A stretch of 29,288 bases of DNA from a virus. The stretch is from IMG/VR virus record IMGVR_UViG_3300037961_006532, positions 1 through 29,288 of that record. One strand, given 5' to 3'. The notes under the pieces are model-generated. The model was not told where the DNA came from and ran no database searches. It worked only from the letters and a program-made list of their open reading frames with translations. The position numbers and the translations under genes were made by a program. Shown here piece by piece: positions 2,007 through 17,502 of this stretch (position 1 is its first letter; every line of letters begins with the position of its first letter).

Positions 2007-2756
2007 ATGAAAAAGATAGTTATAACATTAAGTGGTGGTATGGATTCAGCTGTTTTATTATATAAAGCAGCTCAAGAAGCAGATGAAGTTTATACGGTAA
2101 CATTTGATTACGGTCAACGTCATAAAACTGAATTAGACTGCGTTAACCAACAATTGATAGATTGCATGGAGATTAGTAGTAGTGTTAAATTTTATAATAA
2201 AGTGTTAGATACTAAATTTATACGTGAAATGGCTCCAACGTCATCTTTAACTAATGATGATATTGATACACCTAATGTAAAAGATGTTATGGGTGAAGCT
2301 CAACCTGCATCGTATGTACCTTTTCGTAACTTAATGTTTTTAAGTATGATATGCTCTCATGCTGAAGCAGTCGGAGCTGATGAAGTATGGTATGGAGCTG
2401 CACAAGCTGATAGCTTAGCTGGTTATTGGGATGGTTCTGAAGAGTTTGTTGAACAAGTTAATAAGGTAACAGCATTGAATCGTGAAAATAGAATAACAGT
2501 TAAAGCACCTTTAATTGAAATGTCTAAAGAAGAAATAATTAAAGAAGGAGTTAATCTTGGTGTTGATTTTAGTCACACTTATACTTGTTATTCTGGAGAG
2601 TATCCTTGCGATGCTGAATCAGCTAGTAGTGCTTTACGACTAAAGGGGTTTATTGATGCTGGTTATAGAGACCCATTAGAATATAAACAACAAAAAAAGT
2701 TAGATAAACTTTATTTAGATAATAATTGTAAAGTTATTAAAAACCGTAACGATTAA
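2007..2756 (+). CDS. queC: QueC-like 7-cyano-7-deazaguanine (preQ0) synthase
   Basis: QueC converts 7-carboxy-7-deazaguanine to preQ0, with ATP and ammonia, on the way to queuosine or 7-deazaguanine DNA bases. The PP-loop SGGMDS is at residues 9-14, FDYGQRHK follows near 33-40, and YVPFRNL near 103-109 is typical of the family. The C-terminal KGF...DP segment is also present. The usual four-Cys zinc site is degraded: C194 and C201 remain, but the third and fourth Cys positions hold other residues (C201 is followed by DAESASS). A good ribosome-binding site (AGAGGTG) precedes ATG, unlike the promoter-proximal genes. The 3' end overlaps the opposing gene by 20 nt. In phages such genes usually serve DNA modification or host tRNA changes; which applies here is unknown. 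Confidence 0.88.
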   Translation: MKKIVITLSGGMDSAVLLYKAAQEADEVYTVTFDYGQRHKTELDCVNQQLIDCMEISSSVKFYNKVLDTKFIREMAPTSSLTNDDIDTPNVKDVMGEAQPASYVPFRNLMFLSMICSHAEAVGADEVWYGAAQADSLAGYWDGSEEFVEQVNKVTALNRENRITVKAPLIEMSKEEIIKEGVNLGVDFSHTYTCYSGEYPCDAESASSALRLKGFIDAGYRDPLEYKQQKKLDKLYLDNNCKVIKNRND

Positions 2757-3825
2757 GTCTTTCAACTTTCTGGAAGCGATGCATCTCTTCTCTACCTCTT
2801 TGAATCATCATTTGATTTATTTGTTGAGGTGATAATGCAATTTCTTCATGATCTTCTTCTTTTTCTTCGTCACTTTTCTTTCTTAACTTACCAGTTACAG
2901 GACATCTCTCTGCATCTTCTTCATTATCTTCATCCTCATCATCTTTTTCTTCTGATTTAGACATTGCTTTAGCTATAGCTTCTCCTCTTGCTCTTTCATA
3001 TTCAGATATTTTACCATCTTTATCAAGATCAGATTTTTTAGCATCAAATTCTTCATCATCATCGTATAGTAAAGCTGCTTCTATTTCAGCTTCTTCAGTT
3101 TCATCATCTTGACCAGCTTCATACTCTCCAACATCACCAAACTGATCATCTTCAGGTGCTTCTGCTGGTGTATACTCTTCATCATCATCTTCTTCCCCTT
3201 CAGGGAAGTCTGCTACTAACTTTTCTCTTTTACCTAAATCAATTTCATCAGCTAATTTATCAACTGATTCATATTCTCTTGGCTTAACGATAACCACTGA
3301 AACGACATCATCTTGAGCGATATCATTTAATGTAACTGATGTACCTTTAAAATCATTTAAAGTAACTCTATATTTTAAACCATTATGTTCAACTGTATAC
3401 AATTCATTACCACCTACATCACCATCATGTGATAATTTAGCTTCATCATCTAGGTTTAATTGTAAAGTTTCGAACCCTGTATCACCTTTTTTAAGTTCTT
3501 TTTCAGCACTACCAACTGGACGCATAGTTACTTTCTTTTCTTTACCCATTAATGGTTTTGATGTCATTGACACAATATTAATTGCTTTTTGTAAATCTTC
3601 ATCAGATAGTTGATCAAGATCTACGTTTGGATGGTTTCTTTGTAAATATCTCATTACTTTAGTAGCAAAATATCTAGGTGTCATAGTACCTTTCAACCCT
3701 CTAATATCTTCCATTCCCATTAGTTTAGCTCTCATTGGGTCAGAAATTTTCTTACCTCTAGCTTCTTCTAAGTACTGTTCAGTACTTTCATTTAAAATTT
3801 CTCGGTTAGTCCAGTTAATACTCAT
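2737..3825 (-). CDS. Acidic late protein with an EF-hand loop, probable virion or prohead component
   Basis: A 362-residue protein with a basic, helical N-terminal half and a very acidic second half (Asp/Glu runs around 210-260 and 294-305). Residues 266-277 (DLDKDGKISEYE) match a canonical 12-residue EF-hand calcium loop, with acidic residues at 1, 3, 5 and 12, Gly at 6 and Ile at 8. The N-terminus contains LNE (11-13), which fits the (L/I)xE cleavage rule of T4 prohead protease. A late-type octamer AATAAATA lies 5 nt before ATG. The gene runs opposite to the flanking early genes and its 3' end overlaps queC. The structural or internal-head role is inferred from the late promoter and composition; no named family is recognised. 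Confidence 0.75.
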   Translation of the reverse strand: MSINWTNREILNESTEQYLEEARGKKISDPMRAKLMGMEDIRGLKGTMTPRYFATKVMRYLQRNHPNVDLDQLSDEDLQKAINIVSMTSKPLMGKEKKVTMRPVGSAEKELKKGDTGFETLQLNLDDEAKLSHDGDVGGNELYTVEHNGLKYRVTLNDFKGTSVTLNDIAQDDVVSVVIVKPREYESVDKLADEIDLGKREKLVADFPEGEEDDDEEYTPAEAPEDDQFGDVGEYEAGQDDETEEAEIEAALLYDDDEEFDAKKSDLDKDGKISEYERARGEAIAKAMSKSEEKDDEDEDNEEDAERCPVTGKLRKKSDEEKEEDHEEIALSPQQINQMMIQRGREEMHRFQKVERLNRYGF

Positions 3826-3830
3826 AATAT

Positions 3831-3838
3831 TATTTATT
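3831..3838 (-). promoter_or_regulatory. Late-type promoter octamer for the EF-hand acidic protein
   Basis: AATAAATA on the minus strand has one mismatch to the T4 late consensus TATAAATA and lies 5 nt before the ATG at 3825. It overlaps by 2 nt the -35 box of the divergent early promoter at 3837. Confidence 0.6.
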
Positions 3839-3864
3839 GATTATTGATAATTTTCTACTATAAT
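3837..3864 (+). promoter_or_regulatory. Early-type promoter of the amidotransferase operon (leaderless geometry)
   Basis: TTGATT (3837-3842), 16 nt, TATAAT (3859-3864) and 6 nt lead to the ATG at 3871. This rules out the longer in-frame start at 3844, which would lie inside the promoter. Confidence 0.8.
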
Positions 3865-3870
3865 ATATGT

Positions 3871-4566
3871 ATGTGTGGTATATATGGTAGTAATGATTTT
3901 ACGACTTTTGAAGTTCTAAGTCAAGCTAATAGAAAAAGAGGTAACTTTTCTACCGGTGTTTTATATAAATTTAGAAATTCAAGTTATAATATTCAAAAGA
4001 TTGAAGGTGATAATCTAGATGAAATTGATTTACCTACTAATATAAAAGAAGATGGTAGTAAAAATTATGGAGATTATTTATATTTAGGTCATAATCAAGC
4101 ACCGACAAGTAGTGAAAGAGAATATGAAGAGTGGAATGCTCATCCTTTTGTATATGGTGATTGGATAGTTGCTCATAATGGTGTATTGACAAATATGAAA
4201 GAATTAGTCAATGAATACGTACCGCATCATGATTGTGCTATAGATAGTAGTATAATACCTGCTATGTTATATGAAATGGAATATAAATGTGACCCGTGTG
4301 AAGATCCTGAGACTGAGCAGCAAAATATATTATATGTTATTGAAAGATTAAAAGGTACTTTTGCATTATGGATAATGAACGTTAAAACTATGAATGTTTA
4401 TATTGCAAGACAAGGAAGCACGTTGTTTTATAAAGATAGTAATATATCATCTATTAAAGGGTGTGATTATGAAGAAGTCAAGGAAGGTATATTATATAGT
4501 TATTCATCTGAAGGAGTAGTACCGGTAGATGGATTTTTAAGTAAGTCACCGTTTTTAACATTATGA
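3871..4566 (+). CDS. Stand-alone class II glutamine amidotransferase (Ntn-hydrolase)
   Basis: A glutaminase domain that releases ammonia from glutamine for a partner enzyme. Starting at 3871 the protein begins MCGI, placing the catalytic nucleophile Cys2 at the processed N-terminus; the upstream ATG at 3844 would bury it. Residues that fit the GlmS/PurF-type pocket are HNQAPT (74-79), NAHPF (89-93), HNG (102-104) and D125. The 231 residues hold only the glutaminase domain; the synthase domain of AsnB, GlmS or PurF is absent. It should therefore act with a separate acceptor enzyme. QueC encoded nearby is a candidate because fused amidotransferase-QueC proteins are known, but sugar-amination partners are equally possible. 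The next gene overlaps by ATGA. Confidence 0.87.
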   Translation: MCGIYGSNDFTTFEVLSQANRKRGNFSTGVLYKFRNSSYNIQKIEGDNLDEIDLPTNIKEDGSKNYGDYLYLGHNQAPTSSEREYEEWNAHPFVYGDWIVAHNGVLTNMKELVNEYVPHHDCAIDSSIIPAMLYEMEYKCDPCEDPETEQQNILYVIERLKGTFALWIMNVKTMNVYIARQGSTLFYKDSNISSIKGCDYEEVKEGILYSYSSEGVVPVDGFLSKSPFLTL

Positions 4567-5051
4567 TTAAACAAGTATATTTAAAAGAATTACAAGAAAT
4601 AGATAAGTTACGAATAATAAAATGGGTATATAAAAATACTGATACTTTTATTATGAATACTTTCGGGCATGTATGGTCTGGACGTGATTGGTGGGAAAAA
4701 TTTCCTATACAAGTGTGTGTTGATGATGAAGGTAAGGTTATGGCATTGCATGCTTATACAGTCAATAATAAAAAACCTAATACTTTAAAAACTTATTATA
4801 TAGTAACTGATAAAAAACATAGAGGTAAAGGTTTAGCTAAACTATTAATTAAAAACGCAGTATATAAACATAAAGAAGATATTGAAACTTATTATGTTAA
4901 TACTGATGATAGAAGTGATGGTTCTATTTTTTATATAAGGTGGTTTGGTAATAGTTATAAAAAAGAGGAAAATGATTTTAATTCTACAGATTTAGTATTT
5001 GAGGAACCAATTTATAATATAATAGATGAAGAAACTAAAGACAACGGGTAG
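4563..5051 (+). CDS. GNAT-family N-acetyltransferase-like protein
   Basis: 162 residues. Residues 87-92 (RGKGLA), preceded by a beta strand (YYIVTDKKH), form the acetyl-CoA pyrophosphate-binding loop (R/Q-x-x-G-x-G/A) of GNAT enzymes. The following helix and a strand near 112-116 (ETYYV) fit the fold. The N-terminal acceptor-binding part is not recognisable, so the substrate (an amine on protein, sugar or nucleotide) is unknown. The start codon overlaps the amidotransferase stop in ATGA, and the 3' end overlaps the next gene by 26 nt, indicating tight coupling in the operon. Confidence 0.7.
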   Translation: MIKQVYLKELQEIDKLRIIKWVYKNTDTFIMNTFGHVWSGRDWWEKFPIQVCVDDEGKVMALHAYTVNNKKPNTLKTYYIVTDKKHRGKGLAKLLIKNAVYKHKEDIETYYVNTDDRSDGSIFYIRWFGNSYKKEENDFNSTDLVFEEPIYNIIDEETKDNG

Positions 5052-5370
5052 TCCCCGTCAATTTGATACAGGAGCTCAACGTGATAATGCTGATGGTAAA
5101 CTTCGTATGAGTTTAGTGCCTCATAAAGCATTAGAAGCAGTTATGGAACGTTATTTGCAAGGAGCAGTAACTTACGGCGAAAATAATTGGCGTAAAGGTA
5201 TGAAACATTCCGTTTTATATGATAGTACTATGAGACATTTAATGCAAGATTTTCAAGGTGATGATAGTGAAGATCATTTAGGTGCTGCTTTGTGGAATAT
5301 AATGTGTATGATTGATAATAGATATAAACTTCCAGAAATGGATGATAGAAAAAAATATGAAACATATTAG
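5026..5370 (+). CDS. Small dATP/dGTP diphosphohydrolase-like protein (DUF5664 type)
   Basis: This 114-residue protein matches from memory the phage family annotated as dATP/dGTP diphosphohydrolase N-terminal domain or DUF5664. Its hallmarks are GKLRMSLVP (24-32), YGENNW (50-55), a conserved His in the RHL segment (70-72) and EDHLGAALWN (82-91). All these fit an all-alpha metal-dependent nucleotide pyrophosphohydrolase. Such enzymes adjust dNTP pools and in some phages remove a canonical dNTP so that a modified one is used. It lies between the GNAT and glycosyltransferase genes and overlaps both. Substrate specificity is not visible. Confidence 0.65.
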   Translation: MKKLKTTGSPRQFDTGAQRDNADGKLRMSLVPHKALEAVMERYLQGAVTYGENNWRKGMKHSVLYDSTMRHLMQDFQGDDSEDHLGAALWNIMCMIDNRYKLPEMDDRKKYETY

Positions 5371-6013
5371 ATTTGTAAGTGCAACTAAAGGTAAGAAAGA
5401 AGATACACCTTTATATCAGTCTACTAAGGATTATGAGTTAGGTTTTAATGTATTGTTTTATGAAGATAATACTAAAAGTTTGCAAGAAGTATATAACGAT
5501 GCTATAAAAACTGCTAGAATTCAAAATTTAGATGTAGTTGTTTTATTGCACGATGATATTTTTATAAACGATAAAGATTTTTTAGAAAAGGTAAAAACAG
5601 AATCTGAAAAATATCCTGTCTTTGGAGTTGCAGGGGCAGCATCTTGTACTTTAAAAAAACCTGCATTATGGCATTTAATGTCTGAAAGAAAAGACCATAG
5701 AGGTGTCGTAGCGCATGGTAATGAAAAAGAGTATCATGATACAGTTTTTGGTCCTATGGGCAGAGCATTATTAATTGATGGTGTATTAATTGGTATTAAT
5801 ATTAAAAAATTACCACCAGCAGTTAAGTTTGATGAAAATTACCCATCACGATTTCATTACTATGATTTAGATTTTAGCCTTGAATGCAATAAAAAACATA
5901 TTAAAATAGGCGTAGTTGAATTGCCGATTATACATAGTAGTCCTGGATTAACTGATCCAGATGAAGAGTTTTATAAAGGTCAAGAATATTTTATTAATAA
6001 ATGGAAACGATAG
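5357..6013 (+). CDS. GT-A/GT2-like glycosyltransferase
   Basis: Starting at the ATG at 5357, the 218-residue protein begins MKHIRFVSATKGK. It carries a DxD-like HDD (65-67) after a hydrophobic strand, DGVLIG (141-146), the FHYYDLDFSLEC segment (166-177) common in GT2-type enzymes, and a late His (194) in IIHSSPG. A start at 5312 is possible but would overlap the preceding gene deeply. There is no membrane anchor, so it should act in the cytoplasm on DNA, protein or a glycan precursor. The downstream gene encodes a nucleotidyltransferase that could supply an activated donor, with 13 nt of overlap. Acceptor and donor are unknown. Confidence 0.72.
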   Translation: MKHIRFVSATKGKKEDTPLYQSTKDYELGFNVLFYEDNTKSLQEVYNDAIKTARIQNLDVVVLLHDDIFINDKDFLEKVKTESEKYPVFGVAGAASCTLKKPALWHLMSERKDHRGVVAHGNEKEYHDTVFGPMGRALLIDGVLIGINIKKLPPAVKFDENYPSRFHYYDLDFSLECNKKHIKIGVVELPIIHSSPGLTDPDEEFYKGQEYFINKWKR

Positions 6014-12713: not shown

Positions 12714-13616
12714 ATGAACGTTTTAATTCTTGGTAAAGGTTATATTGGGTTTGGATTGCATGATCTATTCAATAATAAACGAGATGATGTAAATACCTTT
12801 TTTGTACGAAAAAGCCCTGATAACGATCCATCAGCATTATTACAATACGATGATGAAGAAACTCTCTATAATTATTGTCTATCAATGGAAATTGATACTT
12901 TAATTAATTGTAGTGGTTATACTGGTAGTCCTAATGTAGATGGTTGTGAAGATAATAAAGAAGCATGCTTTGAAGCAAACGTTAAATTACCTGTAATGAT
13001 TGAAAGAGTGTGTAAAAGTTTAGATATTGACTTTATACATATGAGTTCAGGTTGTATATACGATGGTTATGATAAAGTATATACAGAAGATGATACCCCT
13101 GATTTCGGTATTTTTGATAGCCATTCAAGTTTTTATAGTAAAACAAAACATATGGCTGAAATGATGCTTGATAAAGACTTTACTTGTATAGTTAGATTAA
13201 GAATGCCAATGGATAGATATTATTGCAAATCTACGAATAAAAATATTCTTAAAAAGCTTATGAATTATGATAACTTAGTAGATTTTGCTAATAGTAAAAC
13301 TGATAGATTTAGACTTTGTGAGTTTATTGATACTATTAGATTAAACTTTAAAGCTGGTATTTATAATGCAGTTCATAGTAATGCTTTAACTACAAGAGAA
13401 GTGGTAAAAATTTTAAAAGAGTACGATTTAATAAATGAAAATTGGAAATTTGTACCTTATGATTCATTACCTTTAAAGTGCAATCGAAGTAATTGTGTAT
13501 TATCGAACGAAAAAGCTAAAGAAGATTTTGACTTCGATTGGGGTGATGAAGAACATTATTTAAGAATTAACGCATCATTAATGCAAAAAGAAAAACAATG
13601 GCAGACAGAGAAATAG
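12714..13616 (+). CDS. RmlD-like sugar-nucleotide reductase/epimerase (extended SDR)
   Basis: 300 residues. GKGYIG (7-12) forms the Rossmann dinucleotide loop, INCSGYTG (64-71) is the strand contacting NAD(P), SSGCIYDG (111-118) contains the catalytic Ser region, and Y141-x-x-x-K145 (YSKTK) is the catalytic pair. This fits the dTDP-4-dehydrorhamnose reductase/NAD-epimerase group that acts on nucleotide sugars in the cytoplasm. It is the first gene of a cassette with a nucleotidyltransferase, an epimerase and a 4,6-dehydratase. The next gene overlaps it by 19 nt. Exact substrate unknown. Confidence 0.82.
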   Translation: MNVLILGKGYIGFGLHDLFNNKRDDVNTFFVRKSPDNDPSALLQYDDEETLYNYCLSMEIDTLINCSGYTGSPNVDGCEDNKEACFEANVKLPVMIERVCKSLDIDFIHMSSGCIYDGYDKVYTEDDTPDFGIFDSHSSFYSKTKHMAEMMLDKDFTCIVRLRMPMDRYYCKSTNKNILKKLMNYDNLVDFANSKTDRFRLCEFIDTIRLNFKAGIYNAVHSNALTTREVVKILKEYDLINENWKFVPYDSLPLKCNRSNCVLSNEKAKEDFDFDWGDEEHYLRINASLMQKEKQWQTEK

Positions 13617-14035
13617 TAGGATTTACAGCTGGTAATTTTGATTTACTCCATCCAGGGTATATATACACGTTTGAAGAAGCTAAAAGACATTGCGATAAGT
13701 TTATAGTCTTCTTACAAAAAGATCCATCAGCTACAAGGTATACAAAATATAAACCTGTTATACCTTATTATGAACGGTATAAAACTTTAATGGCTATACA
13801 ATATATTGATGAAGTATATATGTATCAAACTGAAGAAGAATTATTAAAACTTATAAAGTTTTTTAAACCTGATATAAGAATATTAGGTGAAGATTATATT
13901 GGCAAACCTTTTACTGGTGATAATTTAGATATAAAAGTAATTTATACTACTCGTTCACATGAGTGGTCAACTACAAGAATTAAAGATCTTATTACTAAAC
14001 AAACAATTAAGCAAAATCCTAGTATTGCTTTATGA
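13598..14035 (+). CDS. TagD-like cytidylyltransferase with altered HxGH motif
   Basis: 145 residues of the HIGH nucleotidyltransferase superfamily, closest by eye to glycerol-3-phosphate cytidylyltransferase and sugar-phosphate relatives. The N-terminal signature reads GNFDLLHPGY, with HPGY (18-21) where HxGH is expected, so the second His is Tyr. The C-terminal WSTTRIKDLI matches the ISTTRI motif that contacts the nucleotide. RILGEDYIGKPF resembles the ILGGDW segment. It probably makes a CDP- or similar activated polyol or sugar for the adjacent enzymes. The Tyr may change catalysis or inactivate it. It ends in an ATGA overlap with the next gene. Confidence 0.8.
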   Translation: MADREIVGFTAGNFDLLHPGYIYTFEEAKRHCDKFIVFLQKDPSATRYTKYKPVIPYYERYKTLMAIQYIDEVYMYQTEEELLKLIKFFKPDIRILGEDYIGKPFTGDNLDIKVIYTTRSHEWSTTRIKDLITKQTIKQNPSIAL

Positions 14036-14925
14036 GTAAAAAAGTTATAGTAACAGGTGGTGCAGGTTTTGTAGGTACCAATCTTATAAAAGCACTTAAT
14101 AAAAAAGGCTATAAATGTATTTCTTTAGATAATTATTCTACCGGTAGTAAAAAAAATCATATAGAAGGTAATTTGTATATCAATACTGATATATCTAAAG
14201 AATATGATCAATATTTACATGGCAGTCAAAATGAAATTTTAAAAGATAATAAAGTTTATGATGATGTCATAGCTATTTTTCATTTAGCTGCTTATGCTAG
14301 GATACAACCATCTTTTAAACGAACCGGTGAATATTTTAATAACAATATCGGTGGTATGGTAAAAATATTAGAAGTAGCAAAAGAAAAAAATATTCCAGTT
14401 ATTTACTCAGGCTCATCATCTCATCATAGCGGTAAATATAAAAATCCATATACCTTTTCTAAAGAAGTAGGGGAAGAATTAATTAAATTATATCAAGATT
14501 TATATGATATTAAAGCAAGTGTAGCACGTTTTTATAATGTTTACGGACCTTATCAATTAGAAGATGGACCATATTGTACAGTTATAGGTAAATGGTTAAG
14601 ACAGAAACGAAACAAAGAAAAAATAACTATATACGGTGATGGTAGTAAAAGAAGAGATTTTACTCATGTCGGTGATATTGTAGATGGATTAATAAAAATT
14701 TTAGAATATAATATATGGGGTAAGACGTTTGAGTTTGGAACTGGAATAAATTATAGTTTAAATGAACTTGCAGCATTAATTGATAATAAAGTTGGAGTAA
14801 AATATGAAGATGATAAACCTGGGGAGGCGCAAAGTACTAAATGCGATTACTTTCTAGCAACAGACCTATTGAATTGGAAACCGAAGATAAAATTGGAATC
14901 ATGGATAAAAGAAGAAAAATCTTAG
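14032..14925 (+). CDS. NAD-dependent nucleotide-sugar epimerase (GalE-like SDR)
   Basis: 297 residues. GGAGFVG (9-15) binds NAD, DNYSTGSKKN (33-42) resembles the GalE segment after the second strand, HLAA (84-87) and SGSSSHH (126-132) line the active site, and Y140-x-x-x-K144 is the catalytic pair. RFYNVYGPYQ and RDFTHVGDIVDG are typical of UDP-sugar 4-epimerases and dehydratases. The protein should interconvert a nucleotide sugar in the cytoplasm. It begins at an ATGA overlap and its end overlaps the next gene by 25 nt. Confidence 0.85.
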   Translation: MSKKVIVTGGAGFVGTNLIKALNKKGYKCISLDNYSTGSKKNHIEGNLYINTDISKEYDQYLHGSQNEILKDNKVYDDVIAIFHLAAYARIQPSFKRTGEYFNNNIGGMVKILEVAKEKNIPVIYSGSSSHHSGKYKNPYTFSKEVGEELIKLYQDLYDIKASVARFYNVYGPYQLEDGPYCTVIGKWLRQKRNKEKITIYGDGSKRRDFTHVGDIVDGLIKILEYNIWGKTFEFGTGINYSLNELAALIDNKVGVKYEDDKPGEAQSTKCDYFLATDLLNWKPKIKLESWIKEEKS

Positions 14926-15875
14926 TTACTGGAGGTTATGGCTTTATTGGTGGTAACTTTATTAGATTTCTAAGAGATAATTTTCCGGAATGTTATATTG
15001 TTAATATTGATAAAGATGGTTATGCATCTAATAAAGATTATATAAAAGATCTATGTAATGAAGATATAAAGTTAAATTTAAAAGATTCATTATACTTAGA
15101 AAATGTATTTTTAAAACATACCGTTGATTCATCTGATTCATTTGATTATATTTTTCATTTTGCTGCTGAATCTCATGTCGATAATAGCATATCAGGACCC
15201 ACTGAATTTGTTGAATCTAATGTTTTAGGAACACAAAATCTTTTAGAATGTTATAGAAGAATATCTCCTAGTGCAAGATTTATACATATTTCTACAGATG
15301 AAGTATATGGTCATTTAGGTTGGAATGATGCTCCGTTTACAGAAGAAACACCTTTAGCTCCTAGATCCCCATATTCTGCAAGTAAAGCATCATCAGATTT
15401 ATTATGTTTATCTTATATTGAAACTTATGGCTTAGATATTACAGTTACAAGATGTTGTAATAATTTTGGACCTAATCAATATAAAGAAAAATTTATACCA
15501 ACTATTATAAATGCACTTAAAGATGGTAAAAAAATACCAGTGTACGGTGAAGGAGCTAATATTAGAGAATGGATACATGTTCATGACCATACATTAGCAG
15601 TTTGGTCCATTGCAACTAACGGTAAACCTGGTGTGTATAATATAGGTTCAGGTATTGAAATGACTAATTTAGAATTAGTCGATATTCTTTGTAAAATCTT
15701 TGAAAAAGATATGGATCATTGCGTTAAATTTGTAAGAGATAGACCTGGGCATGATTTTAGATATGCTATTGATAATAGTAAACTTAGAAAAGAATTATGT
15801 TGGGATCCACTTTATAATGATATAGAAAAAGAATTAAGAGAATATGTGGAGTACTTTTTAAACAATGGTAGATAA
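14901..15875 (+). CDS. dTDP-glucose 4,6-dehydratase-like enzyme (RmlB type)
   Basis: Starting at the ATG at 14901 (MDKRRKILVTGG) the protein has 324 residues; a start 60 nt upstream would add an unrelated tail ahead of the usual N-terminus. GGYGFIG (11-17) is the NAD loop, HFAAESHVDNSI (86-97) the family signature, STDEVYG (131-137) supplies the Thr-Asp-Glu catalytic residues, and Y158-x-x-x-K162 the Tyr-Lys pair. NNFGPNQ and REWIHVHDH are also diagnostic of RmlB. It makes a 4-keto-6-deoxy sugar nucleotide, which the RmlD-like enzyme could reduce; RmlA and RmlC are not in the window. Confidence 0.9.
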   Translation: MDKRRKILVTGGYGFIGGNFIRFLRDNFPECYIVNIDKDGYASNKDYIKDLCNEDIKLNLKDSLYLENVFLKHTVDSSDSFDYIFHFAAESHVDNSISGPTEFVESNVLGTQNLLECYRRISPSARFIHISTDEVYGHLGWNDAPFTEETPLAPRSPYSASKASSDLLCLSYIETYGLDITVTRCCNNFGPNQYKEKFIPTIINALKDGKKIPVYGEGANIREWIHVHDHTLAVWSIATNGKPGVYNIGSGIEMTNLELVDILCKIFEKDMDHCVKFVRDRPGHDFRYAIDNSKLRKELCWDPLYNDIEKELREYVEYFLNNGR

Positions 15876-16119: not shown

Positions 16120-16996
16120 TGGAAATAATTTAGTACACCGAGTATATTGGGTAGCTAATAATATGGGATATAAGACTGAATATTTCCATGTTTATATGTT
16201 TTTAAATTCAGTTAAAAGCTACGTTGAATTATATAAGCCTGATAAGACTATTATGGTTTGGGACGAAAAACCTGATTATAAACCTAATAAAAGAAAAGAA
16301 CTTCTGGAAGAGTATAAAGGTAATCGTGATAAAGACTATAATCAAGAAGTTCACGCTGCGAATGAGGTTATAAAAGAGATGTTATCAGACATTGGTATCC
16401 CTTCGATATTTCCTAGAGAATATGAAGCAGACGACGTTATACATATTATTAACAACCATATGGAGAACGTAAGCAAAGTTAATTTCTATAAGGATAAACA
16501 ACCTTTCTCGCACGTTATAGTTACTGTTGATAGAGATCTATGTCAATTAATTAAAACTACTAAACTTAGAAAAGTAGTGGTATATGATCCTATCAGGAAA
16601 TATGAAATAAATGAAGAAAATTTTGAAGAAAAATTAAAATACAAAAAAGAAGATTTCATAAAAGTAAAAGCTCTTCAAGGAGATAAAAGTGATAATATAC
16701 CAGGTATCAAAGGTATGGGTAAAGTTAAAACGCAAAAATATCTTGACGGTGAAATTGAACTTACTGAGGATGAAAAACTTATATTTGAAAAAAATCTTAA
16801 ATTAGTTACATTAACTGATGATAAAGATGAAGTTAAGTATGTTAAGGAACAACTAGCAGAATGTTCTTTTGATACTAATTTTGATAATTTTAAAGCAAAT
16901 TGTGAAAAGTATAAATTTGCTCAAATTTTAAAAAGCGAAAAGAAGTGGTATAATACATTTTTTCAAGACAATAAACTATTAGATCTACTATCATGA
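16100..16996 (+). CDS. rnh: Rnh-like 5'-3' exonuclease/flap endonuclease
   Basis: 298 residues of the FEN/5'-nuclease family, close in size to T4 RNase H (305). Metal-binding acids are D7 (TIDGNN), D55 (WDEKPDY), E109-A-D111-D112 and D144/D146 (VDRD). A Lys/Arg-rich helical arch lies between 59 and 80 (YKPNKRK through GNRDKD), and GDKSDNIPGIKGMG (194-207) is the helix-three-turn-helix that binds DNA with potassium. It removes RNA primers and flaps from lagging-strand fragments, working with gp32 and gp45. It is the replication gene at the end of the sugar cassette operon. Confidence 0.9.
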   Translation: MKILTIDGNNLVHRVYWVANNMGYKTEYFHVYMFLNSVKSYVELYKPDKTIMVWDEKPDYKPNKRKELLEEYKGNRDKDYNQEVHAANEVIKEMLSDIGIPSIFPREYEADDVIHIINNHMENVSKVNFYKDKQPFSHVIVTVDRDLCQLIKTTKLRKVVVYDPIRKYEINEENFEEKLKYKKEDFIKVKALQGDKSDNIPGIKGMGKVKTQKYLDGEIELTEDEKLIFEKNLKLVTLTDDKDEVKYVKEQLAECSFDTNFDNFKANCEKYKFAQILKSEKKWYNTFFQDNKLLDLLS

Positions 16997-17502
16997 ATGA
17001 ATATTTAAAGTTATTCAAACCTATTGAAGATAAAATACCAGTTATCAAAAGAGAACTTAATAAAGTTATAAATGATATGGTATCGTGTAAAGATGTTTAT
17101 GATTGGGGAGATTTTGCTCCTGATGGTTGGACAGCTTTTCCAATCTTTAGCTACCCCGATGGAAATGAAATAGAAGGAATAACTGAAAAGGTACCTTTAA
17201 CAGCACGTATAATTAAACACGCAATACCTAATCATGGTACAGTAGCATTATCTAGATTATTAGGTGATAGTTATATTAAACCACATTGCGGATTTCAAGG
17301 AGATTTTTTAAGATATCATTTGGGTATAAAAGTTCCTAAAGGTGATTTAGGATTGAGAGTAATAGAAGAAGATAAAATTTATAGGTGGGAAGAAGGTAAA
17401 TCTTTTATATTTGATGATAGAAAAGAACATGAAGCTTGGAATTATTCAGATGAAGAACGAATTGTGTTAATTATAGATTTTATACCACCTGGTATTAAAT
17501 AA
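16993..17502 (+). CDS. Aspartyl/asparaginyl beta-hydroxylase-like 2-oxoglutarate oxygenase
   Basis: 169 residues matching the Asp/Asn beta-hydroxylase (AspH/LpxO) superfamily. H98-C-G100 and H146 (HEAWN) fit the two-His iron site in which Gly replaces the acid ligand, as in AspH. RYHLGIKVP (107-115), W132-E-E-G-K (132-136) and ERIVLIIDF (155-163) complete the signature, with R156 as the likely 2-oxoglutarate contact. These Fe(II) enzymes hydroxylate protein side chains or lipid A acyl chains; the substrate here is unknown. The gene begins at an ATGA overlap with rnh and ends before a late-type gene, so it should be co-expressed with the sugar cassette. Confidence 0.82.
   Translation: MNEYLKLFKPIEDKIPVIKRELNKVINDMVSCKDVYDWGDFAPDGWTAFPIFSYPDGNEIEGITEKVPLTARIIKHAIPNHGTVALSRLLGDSYIKPHCGFQGDFLRYHLGIKVPKGDLGLRVIEEDKIYRWEEGKSFIFDDRKEHEAWNYSDEERIVLIIDFIPPGIK
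17494..17501 (+). promoter_or_regulatory. Late-type promoter octamer
   Basis: ATTAAATA, two mismatches to TATAAATA, lies 5 nt before the ATG at 17507 and spans the end of the oxygenase gene. The same octamer and spacing precede three minus-strand late genes (29150, 28049, 26487). Confidence 0.5.

Follow-up and report, generated by a model that had tools for sequence, protein, structure and literature searches.

A QueC enzyme and a detached class II amidotransferase in an uncultured T4-like phage lineage are probable partners in 7-deazaguanine DNA modification

We analyzed the first 29,288 bases (the window) of the 75,766-base virus record IMGVR_UViG_3300037961_006532, a T4-like phage fragment with UvsX, replicative helicase, gp32, and clamp genes. 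The window encodes a QueC-family PP-loop enzyme and a stand-alone class II glutamine amidotransferase (GAT), and our subject is this pair and its probable role in a route that places a 7-deazaguanine base in phage DNA. A preliminary description of the window had reported the two as separate genes lying close together, 1.1 kb apart. Both genes are real, and the gap between them is 1,114 nt and is occupied by a gene on the opposite strand (Table 1).

Table 1. Positions of features in the window and in loci of other phages
Feature	Sequence	Position	Strand	Match or detail
QueC-family PP-loop enzyme, zinc-cysteine-less subtype	window	2007..2756	+	249 aa; ATG 2007, stop 2756; PF06508, E=4.4e-53
Stand-alone class II glutamine amidotransferase (GAT), proposed ammonia supplier of QueC	window	3871..4566	+	231 aa, MCGIYG...
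Gene between queC and GAT	window	2737..3825	-	no Pfam or PHROG match
GNAT acyltransferase, overlaps GAT stop	window	4563..5051	+	PF00583, E=4e-7
dATP/dGTP diphosphohydrolase N-terminal-like protein	window	5026..5370	+	PF18909, E=1.8e-20
Glycosyltransferase-like protein downstream of GAT	window	5342..6013	+	PF13712, E=2e-11
Nucleotide-sugar cassette	window	12714-15875		RmlD-like, cytidylyltransferase-like, epimerase, and GDP-mannose-dehydratase-like genes
Aspartyl/asparaginyl beta-hydroxylase	window	16993-17502		PF05118
DpdA candidate, P-loop gene, QueF	L273	2317-4577		P-loop gene AAA_28, thymidylate-kinase-like
DpdA candidate, P-loop gene, QueF	L290	2206-4457		P-loop gene AAA_28, thymidylate-kinase-like
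DpdA candidate, P-loop gene, QueF	L285	8505-10753		P-loop gene AAA_28, thymidylate-kinase-like
DpdA candidate, kinase-like gene, QueF	L299	7722-10074		
DpdA candidate, kinase-like gene, QueF	L144	4088-6921		
DpdA candidate, kinase-like gene, QueF	L141	10969-13039		
gp056, homologue of DpdA candidate	L172 (CP220)	54675-55451		adjoins thymidylate-kinase gene
Phage QueE	L125	4344-5099		
DUF1501, PSCyt2, PSD1 genes	L071	13193-14452		
DUF1501, PSCyt2, PSD1 genes	L133	10734-13806		

The QueC protein exceeds the cut-off of the NCBIfam equivalog model TIGR00364 (159.3 versus 150.3 bits), and its nearest solved structures are those of QueC (2pg3 and 3bl5). We aligned 27 members of its family and read their motifs against those of canonical QueC, defined as PF06508 cluster 1 (PMC13329287). 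The SGGxDS ATP loop is retained as S9-G10-G11-M-D13-S14 and is invariant in the 27 sequences, and the YxQxHxxE and VPxRN motifs are retained as Y35GQ37RH39KTE42 and V104PFR107N108, respectively.

For GAT, a TTG at 3844 was rejected as the start because class II amidotransferases demand an N-terminal Cys, and the Met-Cys-Gly-Ile at 3871, which is seen in all 38 relatives, supplies this nucleophile. The protein scores slightly under the Pfam GATase_6 cut-off (26.6 versus 27 bits), and its AF2 model (pLDDT 92) finds the glutaminase domains of GlmS, GFAT, and PurF as best Foldseek matches, with E values of about 3e-11 to 1e-9. Residues C2, H91-P92, H102-N103-G104, and D125 are invariant across the 38 sequences, so that the Cys nucleophile (C2), the oxyanion pair (N103-G104), the Asp (D125), and the Ntn fold of class II enzymes are all present in what is a lone GAT domain with no sugar-isomerase domain. 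In a maximum-likelihood tree, the GATs of the window's family and of the Vibrio phages KVP40 and nt-1 form one clade (support 99/93), a kinship also seen by HHalign profile comparison (E=9e-13). This clade is separate from GlmS, PurF, and AsnB and from a second group of phage GATs that are found with ATP-grasp and amidoligase genes; a grouping with sugar-aminating enzymes, which the preliminary description had named as evidence to the contrary, was not seen.

A search of IMG/VR with QueC gave 80 loci with the gene order uvsX, queC, GAT, glycosyltransferase-like gene, dnaB, in which GAT was found wherever the contig was long enough, and an alignment-based search with GAT gave the reciprocal outcome, with queC accompanying GAT. 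We repeated the locus search with dnaB, and therefore with no selection on queC or GAT. Among the 29 loci spanning uvsX to dnaB that were obtained in this way, QueC, GAT, and the glycosyltransferase-like gene were each present in 29/29, the GNAT gene in 21/29, and the dNTP hydrolase gene in 16/29. Just two loci with more than 2.5 kb upstream of dnaB lacked GAT, and in these the contig ends inside or at the gene after GAT. No fusion of QueC with GAT was found in any locus where both genes were read.

The preliminary description had stated that the window holds no DpdA-type transglycosylase, QueD, QueE, or FolE, and this proved correct: queD, queE, folE, queF, and dpdA were found neither in the window nor elsewhere in the 75.8-kb record, and dpdA2 was not found anywhere in the record. 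The open reading frames (ORFs) of the record match a related contig of 185 kb, G018, over about 100–178 kb and nowhere else, whereas G018 has QueF, a kinase-like gene, and DpdA at 21–24 kb and QueE and QueD at 66–68 kb. The capsid gene, DNA polymerase, and QueF of G018, used as queries, gave no match in the record. Judging by gene order relative to G018, the pathway genes would be absent because the record does not reach the part of the genome that holds them, and their absence is what would be expected of an incomplete genome.

The genome search that had been proposed for dpdA, queD, queE, and folE gave nothing in the window's own record, but queD, queE, folE, and a dpdA candidate were found among its relatives, a set of 17 metagenomic, unannotated contigs that are mostly fragments. 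QueD is present in 13/17 of these contigs, QueE in 12/17, and FolE in 7/17, and it is in relatives only that queD and queE are seen in the same genome as QueC. The near relatives G001 (QueC 78%) and G018 (QueC 69%, GAT 63%) both carry QueD, QueE, QueF, and a DpdA candidate, and in G018 these lie on one contig with QueC and GAT. All six relatives that were checked have QueF; both of its Pfam domains were found wherever this was tested, and the protein is canonical, carrying the SNC..T.QPDWG motif for catalysis and the ESKS.KLY.NSFN motif for NADPH binding. ArcS was not found in the relatives examined.

The transglycosylase of the lineage was less readily recognized. Neither the DpdA of the type found in phage 9g (PHROG_887) nor the DpdA2 of nt-1 (PHROG_10773, searched also by tblastn) was found in the 17 relatives, and a phmmer search of the proteins of both families against the ORFs of two large contigs gave nothing significant. 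We inspected the ORFs of two large contigs and spotted a 268–270-aa protein with motifs like those of tRNA-guanine transglycosylases (TGTs), which belongs to PHROG_19058, a family labeled "unknown function." A sequence search of this protein against the PDB missed the TGT relation, but all of the 50 best PDB matches of its structural model (pLDDT 88) are TGTs, with E values from 6e-9. The protein is 50% identical to one of phage immuto that is annotated as a DNA guanine transglycosylase and 47% identical to gp056 of phage CP220; it occurs in 6/17 of the relatives' contigs and in 6/10 further contigs, and a P-loop kinase-like gene and QueF adjoin it in an operon arrangement. On the strength of the modeled fold, PHROG_19058 is a compact TGT-fold protein and the DpdA candidate of the lineage.

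Several observations on the relatives stand apart from these results. The P-loop gene between the DpdA candidate and QueF is thymidylate-kinase-like (Table 1), and such a gene is also near DpdA in immuto and CP220. In CP220, which was counted in 2019 among the phages without DpdA, it adjoins gp056, which by sequence is a candidate for the missing transglycosylase. In the phage QueE (L125 and relatives), the CxxxC part is separated from the third Cys by 11 residues, unlike in CxxxCxxC. The first 7.7 kb of contig G014 (196,877 bases) and its part from 188 to 196.9 kb (L133 and L142) are diverged copies of one gene run that includes DpdA, and G014 is possibly a chimera or two co-assembled phages; its gene set is also seen in G016, G018, and G019. 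Some phage contigs carry genes of the DUF1501, PSCyt2, and PSD1 families, which are typical of Planctomycetes and Verrucomicrobia and hint at hosts from those phyla; in L071, these genes are flanked by the glycosyltransferase-like gene and dnaB.

A GAT of the window's family is also found in the Vibrio phages KVP40, nt-1, and 6E35.1a, where it overlaps the queC stop; the nt-1 protein is PHROG_12378, labeled "hypothetical." The Vibrio cluster has queD, folE, and dpdA2, then queF (KVP40 and 6E35.1a) or arcS (nt-1), together with queC-gat, and in 6E35.1a, queF, queC, and gat are consecutive. Because GAT persists with either queF (KVP40) or arcS (nt-1), it likely acts at the QueC step. In the DNA of 6E35.1a, a species whose mass is that of dPreQ1 amounts to 15% of dG (PMC12028318), and the DNA of nt-1 contains mainly dPreQ0 with traces of dADG and dG+, the latter at 0.02% of G (PMC6884629).

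The suggestion in the preliminary description that a split 7-deazaguanine system is plausible has gained substance from the QueD, QueE, FolE, QueF, and TGT-fold protein of the relatives. Such a split route is well supported, since the relatives hold the pathway genes, the same pair occurs in the Vibrio phages, and 6E35.1a has dPreQ1. Within it, we consider it probable that QueC and GAT act jointly in placing a 7-deazaguanine base in phage DNA. QueD and QueE, with a viral or host FolE, would make the QueC substrate, 7-carboxy-7-deazaguanine (CDG); GAT would hydrolyze glutamine and pass the ammonia to QueC; QueC would use ATP to convert CDG to preQ0; QueF would reduce preQ0 to preQ1; and the compact TGT-fold DpdA-like enzyme would swap guanine in the DNA for preQ1. 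The most likely role of GAT is to supply QueC with ammonia, and the two proteins would be in contact. Asparagine synthetase B (AsnB) is built as a class II glutaminase joined to a PP-loop ATPase, and by analogy GAT and QueC may share the labor in the same way as the domains of AsnB or of the fused Gat-QueC of 9g. The base expected in the DNA is most likely dPreQ1 rather than the amidino base dG+.

A number of points weigh against this interpretation. The YPDC substrate motif of QueC reads Y140-W-D142-G, with Tyr and Asp retained and Pro and Cys gone. From the zinc motif C(x)8CxxCxxC, the CxxCxxC part is gone in 27/27 aligned members, so that three of the four zinc cysteines are lost and C194-Y195 alone is kept family-wide; the positions of the triad hold residues such as ..ADATTPSS.., and the window's own QueC clade retains a second Cys. 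In GAT, Gln76, within an invariant H-x-Q-A-P-T, stands at the place of the glutamine-anchoring Arg73 of GlmS, with a conserved Arg83 close by. Either change, the loss of cysteines from QueC or Gln for Arg in GAT, might modify the predicted reaction or eliminate it, and it is because of both that we infer the catalytic steps rather than assert them. The other pathway genes do not occur on the fragment to which the window belongs, and the window's phage would possess them on the reading given by its relatives. The fixed occurrence of the pair is weakened as evidence because it lies within a single lineage, where vertical descent largely explains it, and it does not count as an independent line of evidence. 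In CP220 and immuto, 7-deazaguanines are made or the pathway is present, yet no GAT of the window's family was found, and GAT is therefore not essential in general. A separate idea, that loss of the zinc cysteines marks a QueC that makes only ADG, was dropped because CP220, in whose DNA every dG is replaced by dADG (PMC8306585), has a QueC with the cysteines, and immuto has one without them.

The alternatives to preQ1 in DNA differ in what the pair would make and in what GAT would serve. The preliminary description pointed to an amidino base (archaeosine or dG+), for which the pair would be a split archaeosine synthase with QueC and GAT amidating preQ0, free or in DNA, to dG+, as the Gat-QueC of 9g does. 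PHROG_10428, the fused Gat-QueC, matches both window QueC and window GAT, and Gat-QueC plus DpdA yields dG+ in Escherichia coli (PMC6884629). The tree support for joining window GAT to fused Gat-QueC is 65/51, too low to decide on their kinship. The little dG+ in nt-1 DNA would be in keeping with such an activity, yet nt-1 has ArcS as well and still contains mostly dPreQ0, and 6E35.1a, with its queF-queC-gat run, has dPreQ1 (PMC12028318). Because canonical QueF is found in the relatives and would draw preQ0 to preQ1, the amidino pointer is not supported, and we consider dG+ an unlikely product. It is similarly doubtful that the DNA of the lineage carries N-acylated preQ1, with the GNAT enzyme acetylating the aminomethyl group of preQ1 to give an acetylated 7-deazaguanine made via a zinc-free QueC and a detached glutaminase; an acyltransferase-like gene does lie in or beside the DpdA-kinase-QueF operon, as a GNAT in G016 and as a formyltransferase in G014 and immuto.

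GAT could instead serve the glycosyltransferase-like gene and the window's nucleotide-sugar genes, for instance by helping to make an amino sugar used in glycosylation of a surface or of DNA, with its proximity to queC being coincidental. The glycosyltransferase-like gene follows GAT in all 29 loci, often overlapping it, the window has RmlD-, RmlB-, and epimerase-like genes, and the GAT fold is nearest to the GlmS glutaminase. However, GAT is apart from GlmS in the tree and has no sugar-isomerase domain, and in KVP40, nt-1, and 6E35.1a, GAT is directly behind queC with no such glycosyltransferase adjoining, which makes this explanation quite improbable in our view. A role of the pathway in supplying host tRNA queuosine, or just in increasing preQ0 or preQ1 levels, with phage DNA unchanged, was raised by Hutinet et al. 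for phages without DpdA (PMC6884629), and QueC, QueD, QueE, and QueF are common to queuosine synthesis. It is very unlikely here, given that the relatives have a TGT-fold protein in an operon with QueF that is 47–50% identical to CP220 gp056 and the DpdA-annotated immuto protein, and that dADG replaces every dG in CP220 (PMC8306585). We give the least credence to QueC being a ligase repurposed for protein deazaguanylation (compare Cap9 of type IV CBASS and QatC), for example as a decoy or counter-defense. The QueC scaffold has been repurposed in that way elsewhere (PMC13329287, PMC13279940) and the zinc motif is gone from the window's family, but YxQxHxxE and VPxRN, which are missing in QatC, are retained, TIGR00364 scores above its cut-off, no partner genes are nearby, and the relatives have the whole preQ1 pathway.

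Around the pair, the opposite-strand gene between queC and GAT is variable among loci, being in most but not all relatives, and is not thought to belong to the pathway. The dNTP hydrolase was described as adjoining GAT; it is present, with the GNAT gene lying between the two. As a pathway component, it was rejected because it varies across loci, in contrast to QueC and GAT, and both it and the GNAT gene are accessory. Farther along, the nucleotide-sugar cassette lies between the clamp and exonuclease genes, and the beta-hydroxylase gene lies within the phage replication region. A promoter scan of the window, made with regard to the early transcription units in which the preliminary description had placed both genes, gave 51 matches against 48.9 in shuffled sequence, which is no excess over chance.

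If the proposed route is correct, a large uncultured T4-like phage group joins those predicted to replace guanine in their DNA, and the detached class II glutaminase would be a concrete partner for a QueC without a zinc site. Two families that lack annotation would gain a likely function, namely the GAT next to queC in Vibrio phages of the KVP40 type, and PHROG_19058 as a DpdA, and the latter may explain how CP220-like Campylobacter phages get dADG into their DNA. The novelty of the PHROG_19058 assignment is uncertain, and parts of the findings as a whole may already stand in the post-2019 literature on 7-deazaguanine phages.

Compared with known systems, the lineage shares with the Gat-QueC/dG+ system of 9g (and archaea) a class II GAT that goes with QueC in a FolE-QueD-QueE-DpdA pathway. 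In 9g, however, GAT is fused to QueC, QueC retains the zinc motif, DpdA is of another family, and the cluster has no QueF, whereas the genes of the window lineage are separate and its relatives have QueF. The Flavobacterium phage immuto 2-6A shares the DpdA family, the thymidylate-kinase-like gene, QueF, and a QueC without the zinc cysteines; it differs in having no GAT of the window's family found and a formyltransferase between DpdA and the kinase-like gene. The Campylobacter phage CP220 shares the DpdA family, QueD, FolE, and QueC, again with no GAT found and with its zinc cysteines kept. The Vibrio phages KVP40, 6E35.1a, and nt-1 have a DpdA2 transglycosylase, unlike the window lineage with its PHROG_19058 candidate, a QueC that retains the zinc cysteines (checked in nt-1), and overlapping queC and gat, whereas the pathway genes of the window lineage are scattered over the genome. 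Among named phages, it is the QueC of this Vibrio cluster that is closest to window QueC (34–36% identity), KVP40 and 6E35.1a, unlike nt-1, also have QueF, and all three are like the window lineage in having QueC plus a separate GAT of one family.

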